Of a DNA stretch of 64,000 nucleotides, positions 42,469 through 47,478 are shown one piece after another. Within the stretch, counting starts at the first letter, position 1. Every line of letters starts with the position of its first letter. This DNA comes from Sphingomonas sp. SUN019 (GTDB lineage: Bacteria; Pseudomonadota; Alphaproteobacteria; Sphingomonadales; Sphingomonadaceae), in NCBI RefSeq assembly GCF_024758705.1, contig NZ_CP096971.1:2943501-3007500 (forward strand), given 5' to 3'. The notes beneath the pieces are model-generated. The model was not told where the DNA came from. It worked only from the letters and a program-made list of their open reading frames with translations, and ran no database searches. The position numbers and the translations under genes were made by a program.

Positions 42469-43235
42469 AGGATCTCGACGACACCCGCGCACCTTTGCTC
42501 GATCACCTGATCGAGCTTCGCCGTCGGCTGTTGTGGTGCGTCGGCTCGATCCTGCTGGCGTTTTTCGTCTGCTATTACTTCGCGGAAAATATCTTCGCGT
42601 TCCTTGTCCAGCCGCTGCTGGCGGTGGGGCAAAAGAAGCTGATCTATACGCAGATTTTCGAGGCGTTCTTCGTCCAGATCAAGGTCGCGTTCTTTGCCGC
42701 GATGATGCTGTCGTTCCCGGTAATCGCGAACCAATTGTGGCAGTTTATCGCGCCCGGCCTGTACCGGAAGGAAAAGCGCGCGCTGCTGCCGTTCATCCTG
42801 GCGACGCCGGTGCTGTTCGGCATGGGCGCATCGATGGCGTATTTCATCGCGGTGCCGATGGCGCTTCACTTCCTGCTCAGCTTTCAGGGCGACGTCGGGG
42901 GGATCAGTCAGGAGGCGCTGCCTGCGATCGGCAATTATCTGTCGTTCATCATGCAATTCCTGTTCGGCTTCGGGATCGCTTTCCTGCTGCCGGTCTTGCT
43001 GATGCTGCTGGAGCGCGCCGGGATCGTGACCCGCAAGCAACTGGTCGGCGCGCGGCGCTACGCGATCGTCGCCGCCTTCGCCATCGCGGCGGTGCTGACG
43101 CCCCCAGATGTCGGGTCGCAACTGCTGCTCGCGATACCTTTGTGCATTCTCTACGAATTCGCGCTGATCGCGATCTGGTTCACCGAACGCCGCCGCGCGC
43201 GTGAAGCTGAAGTTGCGCTAGAGCCCGGCGAATAG
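42465..43235 (+). CDS. tatC: Sec-independent translocase protein TatC
   Basis: The 256-residue protein starts with GTG and has six membrane segments. Family motifs include PLLDHLIELRRRLLWC, QLWQFIAPGLYRKEKR and FGFGIAFLLPVLLMLLERAG. It recognises twin-arginine signal peptides. End of the scpAB-tatABC run. Confidence 0.97.
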   Translation: MKDLDDTRAPLLDHLIELRRRLLWCVGSILLAFFVCYYFAENIFAFLVQPLLAVGQKKLIYTQIFEAFFVQIKVAFFAAMMLSFPVIANQLWQFIAPGLYRKEKRALLPFILATPVLFGMGASMAYFIAVPMALHFLLSFQGDVGGISQEALPAIGNYLSFIMQFLFGFGIAFLLPVLLMLLERAGIVTRKQLVGARRYAIVAAFAIAAVLTPPDVGSQLLLAIPLCILYEFALIAIWFTERRRAREAEVALEPGE

Positions 43236-43247
43236 TCGGCGCAAACG

Positions 43248-43281
43248 AAAAGGGCGGGCCAAGCTTTCGCTCGACCCGCCC
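43248..43281 (-). terminator. intrinsic terminator of the entericidin-like gene
   Basis: On the minus strand a ~13-bp stem GGGCGGGTCGAGC / GCTTGGCCCGCCC (with G-T wobbles) closes a GAAA tetraloop and is followed by TTTT. It lies 24 bp after the small lipoprotein stop. Confidence 0.8.
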
Positions 43282-43304
43282 CAGAAGCCGCAAAGGTGGG
43301 ACGA

Positions 43305-43430
43305 TCAGTCCGCAGCCTTCTCCACTGCTTGACCGGCCGACTGGACGTCCTTGCCGGCGCCTTCGACGGTGTTGCACGCCGACACGACGAGTGCGCTGGC
43401 GACGACGAGCATGGAAACGATCTTGCGCAT
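43305..43430 (-). CDS. entericidin-family small lipoprotein, 41 aa
   Basis: The peptide begins MRKIVSMLVVASALVVSAC (lipobox VSAC, Cys19) and continues NTVEGAGKDVQSAGQAVE, the conserved EcnA/EcnB mature sequence. Entericidins are tiny membrane-attached lipoproteins; in alphaproteobacteria they are frequent stress-regulon members. AAAGG lies 8 bases upstream of the ATG, and a GGAAC element lies ~62 bp upstream. Confidence 0.88.
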   Translation of the reverse strand: MRKIVSMLVVASALVVSACNTVEGAGKDVQSAGQAVEKAAD

Positions 43431-43471
43431 GAAATTTACCTTTCGAAACCGGGCATGACTGCCTCGGTGCA

Positions 43472-43496
43472 AATGCGCGTCCCGGAATATCGTTCC
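43472..43496 (-). promoter_or_regulatory. weak sigma-EcfG-like promoter before the entericidin gene
   Basis: Minus strand GGAAC (43496-43492), 16-base spacer, then CATT (43475-43472), one mismatch from CGTT. Transcription would start ~35 bp before the ATG. Plausible given the neighbouring stress locus. Confidence 0.35.
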
Positions 43497-43542
43497 GCAA
43501 CCGCTTCGATTTCACGTCGCGTCCGACATCCGTCAGGATTGC

Positions 43543-43642
43543 AAAAAATAAGACCCGGAAACGTCACCGGGGGGGAGGGTTGACGTTTCCGGGCCTATGA
43601 CTTGGATAGCGAGAGCGGGGGGGCATAATGTCGCTATCCGAA
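43543..43642 (-). ncRNA. candidate sigma-EcfG-dependent small RNA with C-rich loops
   Basis: Downstream of phyP on the same strand lie two hairpins. Hairpin 1 (43639-43604) has a perfect 9-bp stem GGATAGCGA/TCGCTATCC and an 18-base loop with seven consecutive C. Hairpin 2 (43593-43554) has a perfect 13-bp stem TGACGTTTCCGGG-type and a 14-base loop ACCCTCCCCCCCGG, followed by TCTTATTTTTT. A consensus stress promoter ends 7-9 bases before the first stem. The expected product is ~100 nt. C-rich loops suit pairing with G-rich Shine-Dalgarno regions. In role it may parallel the Caulobacter stress RNA GsrN, but sequence homology is not claimed. Confidence 0.65.
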
Positions 43643-43648
43643 CAGTAG

Positions 43649-43673
43649 AACGGACCTGTCGAATGTCGGTTCC
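43649..43673 (-). promoter_or_regulatory. consensus sigma-EcfG promoter downstream of phyP
   Basis: Minus strand GGAAC (43673-43669), spacer of exactly 16, then CGTT (43652-43649). This is a perfect match to the alphaproteobacterial EcfG consensus. No coding frame follows; the two hairpins of the candidate small RNA do. Confidence 0.7.
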
Positions 43674-43695
43674 ATCCAACGCAGAAAAAAATCGT

Positions 43696-45282
43696 CTAGT
43701 CGCGTCCGATCACCACAATCGCAATTTCATAGGCGCCAGAAAGCGGGTCGTGGTGCAAAGGCGAACGCAACTGGCGCGACAAACCCTCCATCACGCGTCC
43801 GTACCGCTGCGCCAAACCATCGCGCAGCGCTTCACCTTCGATCAGCGCCGGTGACGAGATGCGCAGGACGGCGCGATCTTCGGTCGCGCCTGGCTTCACC
43901 GACACGCGCATGTGCGCCGCGGCGTCGCAGCTCATCGCCAGTTCGATCGTCTCGGTAACGAGGAAGGCGATTGCCACTGCGGTATCCTGCGACACGAAAT
44001 AGGCGTCGACGTCGAGCATGATCGCGAGCCGGCTTCCTTCGGGAGCGGTGGCGCGGATGTTGGAGGCGAGTTCGCCGATGACGGATCGCAGGCCGAGGCC
44101 GCGATTGTCCTCCATCTCGGCGAAATGATTGCGGTGGACGACCGCGAGCGCATCGACGCGGCGCTGGATCGAGGCATAGGCCTGCAGCGCCTCGGGCGTC
44201 TTCGCGCTGCGGGCGTGAAGGTTGATCAGGCTGGAGATCACCTGCAGGTTATTCTTGACGCGGTGGTGGACCTCCCGCGTCAGTCGCGTCTGGCGTACAA
44301 GACCCTCCGCGAGCCCCGCCTCGTGGATCGCGACCGTTCGGGTCAACGCGCGAAAGGTGTCGGCCAGTTCGCGGATTTCCTGTGCCGGCAATCCGCGGAT
44401 CAGAGCGGCGTCGGCTTCGTCGCCCGGCGTGAACGCGGCGATCCCGGCGCGCAGGTGACGCAAGGGGCGGATCAGCAGCCGGTCCACGACAAACCACGAT
44501 ATCCCGGCCGCCGCCGCCCACATCAGGAACGGCAGCATCAGCGCGATCACCAGCGGAGACGTGATCGGCGCGGCGCGTACCTGCATATCCAGCACCAGAT
44601 CGGCGATGCCGAGTTCGATGCGGCTGGTTTCGCGCCGCTCCAGCGTGCTCATCCGGGGCAACGGTCGCAATATAAGCCCGTCGCCGTCACGCACCAACGT
44701 GGCGGCATAGGGCGAGGCGAAACCGCTGGGTTCACTCAACCGGGCGAGAAACGGGCCGGGGAAATAGGCCGCCGCCGAAACGGTGCGCGCCCGGCCGGCG
44801 ACTCCGAGCAGCAGGCCTTCGCCCGGAACGAGATGACCCGCAACGGCGGCTTCGCGCGCCGCTTGGGCGGTATCGGTCGCACCGGAGAAGGCGGCGCCGC
44901 ACACCGGGCGGCCAAGTCGATCGAAGATCGCAAAGCGCACGCCATTCGCCGCCTGCTGCGCGAAGACACCCTGCGCGCGCGCGCAACTCGGCGCATCGGC
45001 GGCGTCGCGCTCGAGTGCATCGACCGCAACGCGCAGCGCCGTCATGTCGCCGATCAGTTCGATCGCGATCGCCCGGCTGCTTTCCACCGCGGCGACGCGC
45101 AGGCGCGAACGCGTCTCTGTTTCGGCGATCTGGGTGGTTTTCAGGGTTGCGAAAATCGCGATTAACGCGAGCGGGAGCAGCGCTACTGAAAGGATAAGAA
45201 ACAGTTTCGCCCCGGTCGGCCAACGTGCGAGCGCGCTGGAGGGCGCCGTGCCGATCCGGGGATCGTCAGCTATCGGTTCCAT
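43696..45282 (-). CDS. phyP: PhyP-like sensor histidine kinase homologue of the stress response
   Basis: The 528-residue protein has two membrane segments (about residues 27-47 and 252-275) around a ~200-residue periplasmic domain, a HAMP-like linker, and a HisKA_2 dimerisation helix with TREVHHRVKNNLQVI (His339/His340). The ATP-binding half is degenerate: where active kinases carry the N-box (NALKHAF type) it reads VTETIELAMSCDA, and clear glycine boxes are missing. In Sphingomonas Fr1, PhyP in this position is a negative regulator of PhyR, probably a phosphatase, which fits a non-functional kinase domain. It follows nepR by 14 bp. Confidence 0.88.
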   Translation of the reverse strand: MEPIADDPRIGTAPSSALARWPTGAKLFLILSVALLPLALIAIFATLKTTQIAETETRSRLRVAAVESSRAIAIELIGDMTALRVAVDALERDAADAPSCARAQGVFAQQAANGVRFAIFDRLGRPVCGAAFSGATDTAQAAREAAVAGHLVPGEGLLLGVAGRARTVSAAAYFPGPFLARLSEPSGFASPYAATLVRDGDGLILRPLPRMSTLERRETSRIELGIADLVLDMQVRAAPITSPLVIALMLPFLMWAAAAGISWFVVDRLLIRPLRHLRAGIAAFTPGDEADAALIRGLPAQEIRELADTFRALTRTVAIHEAGLAEGLVRQTRLTREVHHRVKNNLQVISSLINLHARSAKTPEALQAYASIQRRVDALAVVHRNHFAEMEDNRGLGLRSVIGELASNIRATAPEGSRLAIMLDVDAYFVSQDTAVAIAFLVTETIELAMSCDAAAHMRVSVKPGATEDRAVLRISSPALIEGEALRDGLAQRYGRVMEGLSRQLRSPLHHDPLSGAYEIAIVVIGRD

Positions 45283-45296
45283 ATCGGACCGGGAAC

Positions 45297-45464
45297 TCAG
45301 TCCAGCTTGCCGAGCAGCGAAAGCATTTCGTCGGGAACCGCTTCTTCGATCGTCTTCTGATAGATCGAGCGCAGCGCCGACCCCATGTCACGATCCTTCG
45401 ATTGAACGGGCGGCACGCCCTTCTTTCGGTCCGACTTCTTTTCTTCGTGGCCCGAACTCAACAC
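45297..45464 (-). CDS. nepR: anti-sigma factor NepR
   Basis: GTG 45464 gives a 55-residue protein. The C-terminal helix SALRSIYQKTIEEAVPDEML matches the NepR core, which binds EcfG or the PhyR sigma-like domain. The basic N-terminus (KKSDRKKG) is expected to be disordered. The longer upstream extension of the frame has no NepR character. It is divergent from phyR and co-directional with phyP. Confidence 0.88.
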   Translation of the reverse strand: MLSSGHEEKKSDRKKGVPPVQSKDRDMGSALRSIYQKTIEEAVPDEMLSLLGKLD

Positions 45465-45562
45465 AAACCCCCCGGCGAAGCCCGGATCGTTGCCGGGCGG
45501 TCCCTGAATTCGCCCGGATACGGCCGGACTGCCCGCATGTGCAACATGCAAGCGAGACAATG

Positions 45563-45588
45563 AAACAAAAGAGCGTGTTGATGGTTCC
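45563..45588 (-). promoter_or_regulatory. sigma-EcfG-like promoter of nepR-phyP
   Basis: Minus strand GGAAC (45588-45584), 17-base spacer, GTTT (45566-45563); with spacer 16 the -10 reads TGTT. It lies ~100 bp before the nepR start and predicts feedback expression of the negative regulators by EcfG. No equivalent GGAAC element is visible on the phyR side of the gap. Confidence 0.55.
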
Positions 45589-45721: not shown

Positions 45722-46519
45722 ATGTCGCTTGGACAACAACTCGCGCCTCACCTTCCGTTTCTGCGGCGCTACGGCCGTGCTCTCACTGGCAGTCAGTCCC
45801 ACGGCGACAAATATGTTCGCGCGACATTAGAAGCGATCGTCGCCGCGCCGGCGGAATTTCCGCGTGACGTCGATCCGCGGCTCGGCTTGTACCGTACGTT
45901 TCAGGCGATCTGGGCGTCGACCAACTTCGAGGACGATGCCGACGACGGCTTTGGCGACGATCAGGAATCGATCGCTCGGGCGCGCCTTTCCCGTATGACG
46001 CCGCTGTCGCGACAGGCGCTGCTACTGACCGCGATGGAAGGATTCACGCCGGAGGATACAGCCTATCTGATCGAGGTTGAGCCGGCCGAGGTCGAATCGC
46101 TCGTCGCCGACGCGCTATCGGAAATCGAGAACCAGACCCGCGCGCGCGTGCTGATCATCGAGGACGAGCCGATCATCGCGATGGACGTCGAGACGATCGT
46201 GCGCGATCTCGGCCACGAAGTGACCGGTGTAGCAGTGACTCGCGACGAAGCCGTCGCACTGGCGATGCAGGACCGGCCTGGTCTCGTTCTTGCCGACATC
46301 CAACTGGCTGACGACAGTTCGGGCATCGACGCGGTGAAGGACATTCTCGCCGAATTCCAAGTGCCGGTGATCTTCATCACCGCTTTCCCCGAACGCCTGC
46401 TGACCGGCGAACGTCCGGAACCGACGTTCCTGATCACGAAGCCGTTCCAGCGGTCGACCGTGAAGGCCGCGATCAGCCAGGCGCTGTTCTTCGATCAATC
46501 CACCGCCCCGGTCGAATAG
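45722..46519 (+). CDS. phyR: general stress response regulator PhyR
   Basis: ATG 45722 gives 265 residues. Residues ~1-130 are an ECF-sigma-like domain (LRRYGRALTGSQSHGDKYV, LSRMTPLSRQALLLTAMEGF), and residues ~140-260 a receiver domain with VLIIEDEPIIAMD, phospho-acceptor Asp192 (VLADIQLADD), ITAFPERL and KPFQ. When phosphorylated it mimics the sigma factor and sequesters NepR. Length and domain order are standard. Confidence 0.97.
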   Translation: MSLGQQLAPHLPFLRRYGRALTGSQSHGDKYVRATLEAIVAAPAEFPRDVDPRLGLYRTFQAIWASTNFEDDADDGFGDDQESIARARLSRMTPLSRQALLLTAMEGFTPEDTAYLIEVEPAEVESLVADALSEIENQTRARVLIIEDEPIIAMDVETIVRDLGHEVTGVAVTRDEAVALAMQDRPGLVLADIQLADDSSGIDAVKDILAEFQVPVIFITAFPERLLTGERPEPTFLITKPFQRSTVKAAISQALFFDQSTAPVE

Positions 46520-46581: not shown

Positions 46582-46725
46582 ATGGCTGACGACGAAAAAC
46601 AGGTTCATATCGATTCCGACGATGCGCGCGGCGGGGCGACCCCGCACATGACGCGCTATATCTTGGGGATCTCGCTCGTTCTGGTGGTTGCGATCTTCGC
46701 CTTCCTGATCTTCGCGCGGCAGTAA
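46582..46725 (+). CDS. small single-pass membrane protein between phyR and ecfG, 47 aa
   Basis: ATG 46582 begins MADDEKQVHIDSDDARGG, a polar N-terminus, followed by one membrane helix (ILGISLVLVVAIFAFLIF) and a short ARQ tail. GGGGG lies ~10 bases upstream. It sits 62 bp after phyR and 108 bp before ecfG, in the same direction. No known function; its place suggests it belongs to the stress locus. Confidence 0.7.
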   Translation: MADDEKQVHIDSDDARGGATPHMTRYILGISLVLVVAIFAFLIFARQ

Positions 46726-46833: not shown

Positions 46834-47478
46834 ATGACGCAAGCAGAAATGCGCGAAGACGACGACGCGGAAATCGCCGCGCCGGTCGAGCACGTCGCGC
46901 TATCCGATCCCGAGTTCAAGACGCAACTCGCGCAGGTGATTCCCCACCTGCGCGCGTTCGGCCGGTCGCTGTCCGGTAATCGCGATCTCGCCGACGATCT
47001 CGTGCAGGAAACGTTGTTGAAGGCGTGGGCCGCGCGCAAACGTTTTCAGGCCGGCACCAACATGCGGGCGTGGACATTTATCATTTTGCGTAACCTGTAT
47101 TTGTCCCAAATGCGCCGGTCACGCTTCAAAGGTGAGTGGGACGATCTGGTTGCCGATCGCTTGCTCGCGGCGCCGGCGAGCCAGGACAAGCATGTCGAAC
47201 TCGCCGACATGCAGCGCGCGTTGTTGCATTTGCCGCAGCCGCAGCGCGAAGCGTTGATCCTGGTTGGTGCGGGCGGGTTCGCTTACGAAGAAGCTGCCGA
47301 AATTTGCGGCGTGGCGGTAGGTACGATCAAAAGCCGCGTTGCACGCGGGCGAGTCGCGCTAGAGGCGTTGATGAGTGGTACCGACCTGACATCACGACGC
47401 GACCATCACAACGATTCGGGGATGACGACGCTGGACGAGATCATGGGCGAGGTCGACGAACTCAGCCGCGACCGCTGA
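46834..47478 (+). CDS. ecfG: general stress ECF sigma factor EcfG
   Basis: The 214-residue protein has region 2 (HLRAFGRSLSGNRDLADDLV, ETLLKAWAARKRF, MRAWTFIILRNLYL) and region 4 (LPQPQREALILVGAGGFAYE, EICGVAVGTIKSRVARGR), the EcfG (ECF15) pattern. NepR holds it inactive until PhyR is phosphorylated. No GGAAC element is seen directly upstream. Confidence 0.95.
   Translation: MTQAEMREDDDAEIAAPVEHVALSDPEFKTQLAQVIPHLRAFGRSLSGNRDLADDLVQETLLKAWAARKRFQAGTNMRAWTFIILRNLYLSQMRRSRFKGEWDDLVADRLLAAPASQDKHVELADMQRALLHLPQPQREALILVGAGGFAYEEAAEICGVAVGTIKSRVARGRVALEALMSGTDLTSRRDHHNDSGMTTLDEIMGEVDELSRDR

Follow-up and report, generated by a model that had tools for sequence, protein, structure and literature searches.

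A probable EcfG-controlled small RNA with C-rich loops directly downstream of phyP in Sphingomonas sp. SUN019 and related genomes

What is encoded in the short interval that separates the histidine kinase gene of the general stress response locus from the entericidin-like gene in Sphingomonas sp. SUN019? The window considered in the current analysis is a 64,000-nucleotide stretch of this genome, and an earlier reading of its letters, made without database searches, had placed a small RNA (sRNA) controlled by the general-stress sigma factor EcfG at positions 43543-43673 of the minus strand. We identify this interval as probably the gene of a trans-acting sRNA of about 100 nt, which would be induced by EcfG and would act through C-rich loops pairing with G-tracts of mRNAs. 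On the nature of the object the sequence-only reading was correct, and it was very probably correct in placing it under EcfG.

The stress locus and the promoter of the RNA

The interval follows a phyP (phyT)-like gene (43696-45282, minus strand) encoding a kinase with HisKA_2 (6.6e-19) and HWE_HK (4.1e-8) domains, and 22 nt separate the stop codon of this gene from the -35 element of the putative sRNA promoter on the same strand. The kinase once named PhyP in S. melonis Fr1 is described as now being called PhyT (PMC6599016), and the kinase gene of the window appears to be its ortholog by domain and place. The nepR gene (45297-45464, minus strand; NepR, PF18557, 1.2e-6), which starts at GTG 45464 or TTG 45461, the phyR gene (45722-46519, plus strand; PhyR_sigma2 6.9e-26, Response_reg 1e-12) and ecfG, the gene of the general-stress sigma factor (46834-47478, plus strand; Sigma70_r4_2 3.2e-14, Sigma70_r2 1.7e-13), all lie less than 5 kb from the sRNA in the window, and this proximity is kept in relatives. 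Downstream of the sRNA, a 41-aa entericidin-like protein (PF08085, 4.1e-10) is encoded at 43305-43430 of the minus strand behind an EcfG-type promoter of its own, GGAAC-N16-CATT (43472-43496, minus strand). Of 90 loci, 84 carry a promoter of the form GGAAC-N16/17-NRTT before this gene, 80 of them with CATT as the -10 element, whereas the form turns up in 8 of 1800 shuffles; the entericidin-like gene adjoining the sRNA is likely a member of the EcfG regulon.

The promoter that had been read for the RNA itself, GGAAC-N16-CGTT (43649-43673, minus strand; -35 GGAAC at 43673-43669, CGTT at 43652-43649), is confirmed letter by letter and is unique within the 64-kb window on both strands. The pattern GGAAC-N16/17-CGTT followed by C7 within 5-40 nt occurs once in the window and in none of 200 dinucleotide-shuffled windows. 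Genome-wide, GGAAC-N15-19-CGTT has 139 sites against 104 for the reversed pattern; this motif alone is weak evidence for a promoter, and the case rests on conservation rather than on the motif. Among the matches listed, 117 of 119 loci carry the motif GGAAC-N16/17-NGTT at an almost constant distance, the spacer being N16 in 104, the -10 element CGTT in 106 and the distance to the hairpin 9 nt in 105. The remaining two of these 119 listed loci are readable as GGAAC-N16-CATT, a -10 form that is listed among the EcfG promoters of Sphingopyxis granuli (PMC7083833). Judged from the promoter, the RNA would start at about 43642. An A/T-rich stretch has also been observed upstream of the -35 element at 43685-43691 (minus strand), and many homologs carry an A/T-run such as AAATTTTTT about 10-25 nt before GGAAC, which is UP-element-like by appearance.

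Two hairpins and their conservation

The two hairpins and the U-rich terminator proposed earlier are borne out. Hairpin 1 (43604-43639, minus strand; stem GGATAGCGA / TCGCTATCC) begins 9 nt past the -10 element and has a C7-GCTC loop, a candidate 5' target-recognition loop in the predicted structure. Hairpin 2 (43551-43596, minus strand), with the loop ACCCTCCCCCCC, is the stem of an intrinsic terminator; the terminator hairpin with its CCCUCCCCCCC loop is followed by a T6 tract (43543-43548, minus strand) that ends at 43543, the predicted 3' end of the RNA of about 100 nt, and the loop, CCCTCCCCCCC, includes the anti-Shine-Dalgarno motif CCUCC. The predicted folding energy of the 103-nt strand is -44.5 kcal/mol; shuffled versions average -23 (z -7.1), and none of 200 reaches the value of the real sequence.

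Two statements on the loops held in part. Both C7 runs had been described as open, which agrees with the prediction for hairpin 2, where the whole C7 is unpaired (probability 0.98-1); in hairpin 1, cross-loop pairing is predicted for the first C and the G preceding it (unpaired probability 0.13-0.17), and the remaining six C's are unpaired (0.98-1). Complementarity of the loops to the Shine-Dalgarno sequence applies to loop 2, in which CCUCC lies within the pyrimidine run in 101 of 120 loci among the matches listed; loop 1 of the window is instead C7-GCUC without CCUCC, and fits G-tracts. Loop 1 of some divergent members, for example L170 and L176, does contain CCUCC.

Among 30 homologs from the family Sphingomonadaceae, 96.8% of the cells are paired and 13 pairs show two-sided changes; such changes occupy 54 cells, where shuffles give 16.7 and none of 500 reaches 54. 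Hairpin 2 covaries already among these close relatives and hairpin 1 is near-invariant in the 30; the covariation of hairpin 1 was settled by adding the divergent loci L162-L177. The resulting alignment of 66 sequences, made up of 50 loci hand-picked for spread and these divergent loci, has 96.6% of its cells paired, and 190 two-sided-change cells against 41 in shuffles and 18-41 with slid partners, a count that leans towards the model since the alignment was fitted to it. Two-sided changes are found in all 9 pairs of hairpin 1, which is paired in 99.2% of its cells, and in 15 of the 16 pairs of hairpin 2. The C's of loop 1 are conserved at 94-100% while the stems change, as is the GCUC after them (94-97%), and in L170 and L176 the stem of hairpin 1 is mostly replaced with the C-rich loop kept. 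C-rich loops are present in all 16 divergent members, loop 1 of L167 having C4 only, and the folds of four divergent members score z -6.7 to -9.7. Conservation of stems and promoter in relatives had been named beforehand as one of the points on which the proposal could fall; the near-fixed promoter of the listed loci, the covariation of both hairpins and a kept synteny with phyP are what has been found.

Distribution and genomic context of the family

A blastn search with 141 nt identified the RNA in 80 of 298 family genomes and 28 of 96 genera. The covariance search that had been suggested as a check extends this representation: R1, a covariance model made from the 30 best loci, matches 123 of the 298 Sphingomonadaceae genomes and 45 of the 96 genera at E <= 0.01, the weakest matches (E about 1e-6 and above) being doubtful. 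With the wider model R2, 130 of 396 genomes of the order are matched at E <= 0.001, the weakest again doubtful. They include 45 genomes of the genus of the window (a partial match in G836), and at least one genome of this genus, G823, has no R2 match; G754 is an order-level match outside the family (E 4e-4). An exact 22-nt core is found at 120 loci or more in named genome records, and 80 record titles among the matches listed include Sphingomonas, Stakelama, Hephaestia, Sphingosinicella, Sphingomicrobium, Sphingorhabdus and Parasphingopyxis as well as unresolved or uncultured bins.

The order kept in the 80 loci is phyP, RNA, entericidin and tatC, the last on the opposite strand. Among the matches listed, phyP precedes the RNA in the same orientation in 73 of these loci, tatC is downstream in 69 and entericidin is present in 63, the counts covering 80 of the at least 120 loci, several of them limited by the 8-kb span. 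Twenty weaker family matches were also fetched, of which 16 (L162-L177) were kept and four (L178-L181) were dropped when a pattern search gave no promoter. L178 still has tatC in its surroundings and may be a genuine member that has diverged; L167, which was retained, has no strict GGAAC promoter. L170, L172 and L173 have the promoter and both loops with none of the searched neighbours within about 5 kb, L172 is the second copy in its genome, and L174 and L175 both come from the same genome. By sequence, the family thus has paralogs, divergent second or relocated copies with an EcfG-type promoter (L172, L174/L175, L170, L173).

In a set of 385 genomes of the class that includes a few of the family, R1 matched seven genomes outside the family (best E 0.003), and R2 matched 18 (best E 3.8e-6 for L282, others 0.004 or worse). 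The promoter is absent in all 17 class-level matches read of these 18 (G300 was left out), of which L293 is cut by a contig end, with its promoter possibly read at a wrong offset; the R1 class matches G433, G510, G516 and G595 lie outside the set read for the promoter. L282, which comes from another family, shows two hairpins (about 1501-1605) with the loops C7 and CCUCCCCC, no GGAAC and no match to stress-locus proteins in its 3 kb, and is perhaps a related RNA under other control. Searches of Rfam 15 gave nothing over the RNA at E up to 1 (window positions 43000-44200; loci L001, L003, L009 and L021) and no match at gathering in the whole window; sX6 and BjrC68 scored weakly on other stretches, below gathering, and were set aside.

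These data also bear on two simpler explanations of the interval. The structure could be the terminator or 3' UTR of phyP only, with an insulating role before entericidin and a decorative GGAAC; hairpin 2 with T6 is indeed a good intrinsic terminator right after phyP. Such a role does not account for hairpin 1 and its loop being better conserved than the terminator stem, for the promoter at its near-fixed distance in nearly all of the listed loci, or for the retention of promoter and both loops in L170, L172 and L173 away from the searched neighbours, and we regard it as very improbable. A short peptide in place of an RNA is harder still to credit: a 20-codon frame from ATG 43626 does span both loops, but it is broken among relatives by single-base length changes in the C-runs and spacers, roughly two thirds of the 66 sequences have T in place of the A of this ATG, and the stems covary as RNA.

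The nepR leader as a candidate target

We propose that the sRNA of about 100 nt would be induced by EcfG as one part of the general stress response, and that the C-rich loops of both hairpins would bind G-tracts close to the start codons of numerous mRNAs and alter how these are translated. Hairpin 2 would double as transcription terminator and could stop read-through from phyP; some phyP transcripts may read into the sRNA. Among the candidate targets considered, the most conserved is the ribosome-binding site of nepR, a G-tract; this gene of the anti-sigma factor lies two genes upstream of the sRNA. If the sRNA blocks nepR translation, the brake would be delayed and the response prolonged. 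That an EcfG-induced sRNA silences nepR in this manner is a tentative proposal that we hold as possible rather than probable. The sigma factor would then make both the brake and the RNA that restrains it, and the general stress switch of Sphingomonas and relatives would contain a conserved post-transcriptional loop.

The tract is GGGGGG at 45468-45473 (minus strand), a candidate target of both C-rich loops, and nepR is preceded by an EcfG-type promoter, GGAAC-N16-TGTT (45564-45588, minus strand), which in the form GGAAC-N16/17-NRTT is found in 85 of 88 loci, the window included, against 43 of 1760 shuffles. GGGGG stands 3-16 nt before an in-frame start of nepR in 69 of 88 loci, and GGGG in 86. 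The nine neighbouring genes have GGGGG in 0-23% of loci (PhyP 1/89, PhyR 3/86, the 47-aa ORF 17/74, EcfG 10/80, TatC 2/95, Ecn 1/91, TatA 0/89, TatB 0/93, GlnE 1/48), so that among the ten genes compared nepR alone regularly carries the tract; nepR has more candidate starts, and its rate per start is still 0.29 against 0-0.15. Within 130 nt upstream of the nepR core, GGGGG occurs in 71 of 88 loci against 30.7 expected from dinucleotide shuffles; the same count gives 40 of 86 against 23.9 for PhyR, a mild enrichment, and 17 of 80 against 12.6 for EcfG. The 20 nt preceding the nepR tract are only 33% identical between loci.

Pairing of the loops with G-rich leaders, which had been put forward as a prediction to be run, came out in favour of nepR. 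Its G-tract is complementary to the loops, with predicted duplexes of -19 to -21 kcal/mol in the window. Among the ten genes compared, the predicted loop-1 duplex of nepR is the most stable: its median is -16.3 kcal/mol, with 95% at or under -12, and the medians of the other nine are -5.7 to -12.1. The score takes the lowest value from up to six starts of each gene and favours genes with many starts, such as nepR. In 30 other family genomes, of which 27 have no match to either model and three (G032, G037, G069) a doubtful one, nepR carries G5 in four and G4 in six; the R2 sample may miss some of these genomes. This contrast may amount to one event because it follows clades, the two nepR sets being different clades with different forms of nepR as judged by NepR scores, so that P values calculated for it are too favourable. 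Two nepR leaders were read from divergent carriers of the RNA, that of L164 with GGGG and that of L165 without GGGG in the stretch shown.

AGGGGGA before nepR may be a mere ribosome-binding site. The nepR tract could be a variant site tuned for low translation from GTG or TTG, with the RNA acting on other mRNAs, and we give this explanation an even chance: the tract lies 4-11 nt before GTG/TTG starts with a preceding A in 51 of 69, and the contrast with the RNA-less genomes is confounded by clade. It has to be set against the rarity of such tracts in genes of the same locus, against the predicted loop-1 duplex, strongest for nepR by a score that favours genes with many starts, and against the EcfG-type promoters of both nepR and the sRNA. 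Alternatively, by analogy with the alpha-r14 and CcsR/cuckoo RNAs, the C-rich loops might block many ribosome-binding sites under stress as a general anti-Shine-Dalgarno repressor without any special role for nepR. The frequent CCUCC in loop 2 of the listed loci and the C-rich loops of the 16 divergent members (just C4 in loop 1 of L167) agree with this, as do the alpha-r14 RNAs, described with CCUCCUCCC in unpaired regions (PMC10746234). Yet CCUCCUCCC is found in none of 120 loci among the matches listed and is absent from the window, and CCUCC is lacking in loop 1 of the window, which is the better conserved of the two. Moreover GGAG-type sites are kept by PhyR (84/84), Ecn (85/86) and TatA (88/88) whereas nepR keeps its G-tract, which suggests selectivity, and we consider a general repressor of this kind somewhat unlikely.

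Other targets have been considered. The katG gene of the same genome has no G5 around its start, and among 30 katG loci (including this genome and 13 others with an R1 match at E <= 1e-7) L190 alone has G5 clearly in the leader, four further loci having it elsewhere within the 290 nt examined; the G5 counts do not support katG as a conserved target of the kind known for GsrN. Full-length complements of loop 1 (GCGGGGGGGC) number eight in the genome against 12 for the reversed pattern, one of them being the locus itself and the other seven lying inside long forward frames, among the forward frames examined. Full complements are thus uninformative, and pairing would rest on short G-tracts. G6 before RTG occurs 332 times genome-wide against 211 for the reversed pattern (1.6x), a list too noisy for naming targets.

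Relation to known small RNAs

EcfG is alphaproteobacterial, CcsR and the cuckoo RNAs share a C-rich anti-Shine-Dalgarno motif, and sX13 of Xanthomonas is not known to be EcfG-controlled. The closest likeness is to GsrN (ccna_R0081) of Caulobacter crescentus, described as a sigma-T-dependent RNA of about 100 nt that pairs with G-rich leaders of mRNAs through a C-rich loop in its 5' part (PMC5869019). The homologs predicted for it usually lie close to the stress locus, with C. crescentus as an exception (PMC5869019). In the same report GsrN pulled down nepR-sigT mRNA with stress transcription unchanged, and the predicted contact with the co-purifying nepR mRNA is GGGGGGCG (PMC5869019). That paper states no apparent gsrN-like gene in Erythrobacter litoralis, and 'sphingo' is absent from its text (PMC5869019). 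The sRNA of the window resembles GsrN in its general-stress-sigma promoter motif, predicted length of about 100 nt, exposed C-rich 5' loop, intrinsic terminator and proximity to the stress locus. The likeness is one of description, no promoter-bearing covariance match having been found outside the family among the class matches read, and the katG leader pairing of GsrN is not conserved in the window family. GsrN is further marked by processing to a stable 5' isoform, stabilisation by Hfq and a role in stress survival, and an hfq gene is present in the genome of the window.

ReC64 of Rhizobium etli, an EcfG-dependent stress-response sRNA that is alike by description, is located downstream of the kinase gene tcrY and is mainly EcfG1-dependent; unlike that of the present family, its conservation is reported for R. 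etli CIAT 652 and R. leguminosarum (PMC3892343). The alpha-r14 RNAs such as NfeR1 are described as hairpins in which an unpaired C-rich anti-Shine-Dalgarno motif is conserved and the stems differ (PMC10746234, PMC10253847). The alpha-r14, cuckoo and CcsR group differs from the window family by the motif CCUCCUCCC, which the listed loci lack, and CcsR also by a promoter described as RpoHI/RpoHII-type. The C-rich loops of sX13 are described as acting on G-rich motifs near starts, and translation of pilH as depending on a 5G motif where the ribosome binds (PMC3771888). This offers an analogy to the loops and G motifs considered here, with the difference that sX13 has three C-rich hairpin loops and belongs to other bacteria (PMC3771888). 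SuhB of Sphingopyxis granuli, an sRNA from the same order as the organism of the window, is Hfq-dependent; it is set apart from the RNA of the window by its published description alone, a length of 61 nt and a rise at high growth rate (PMC6563040).

An EcfG-controlled sRNA at the stress locus is a known kind in Caulobacteraceae and rhizobia (PMC5869019, PMC3892343), and the Sphingomonadaceae family is the new part. In the open-access literature, most subscription papers lying outside this scope, no report of the family or of the nepR lead was found and no paper contains both 'sphingomon...' and 'GsrN'; a word search found no sRNA in the main text of PMC6599016 and none except a reference to SuhB in that of PMC7083833. 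The RNAs with C-rich loops probably controlled by EcfG would thereby be extended to Sphingomonadaceae, in which the general stress response is being dissected, and a covariance model of the sRNA is provided together with its conserved synteny. Feedback on nepR by such RNAs is a question raised by the Caulobacter pull-down, and it is directly testable here.

Two further observations concern the genome. An Hfq gene is encoded in it, with two tandem Hfq matches in a 190-aa open frame (G000:C1:278946-279377, locus L298). Between phyR and ecfG (46582-46725, plus strand) lies an ORF for a conserved 47-aa protein with no Pfam match, single-pass membrane by eye and present in 51 of 80 loci; its leader in the window contains GGGGGG, and a box TACGGA(C/G)CCAAAACG is often found upstream of it.
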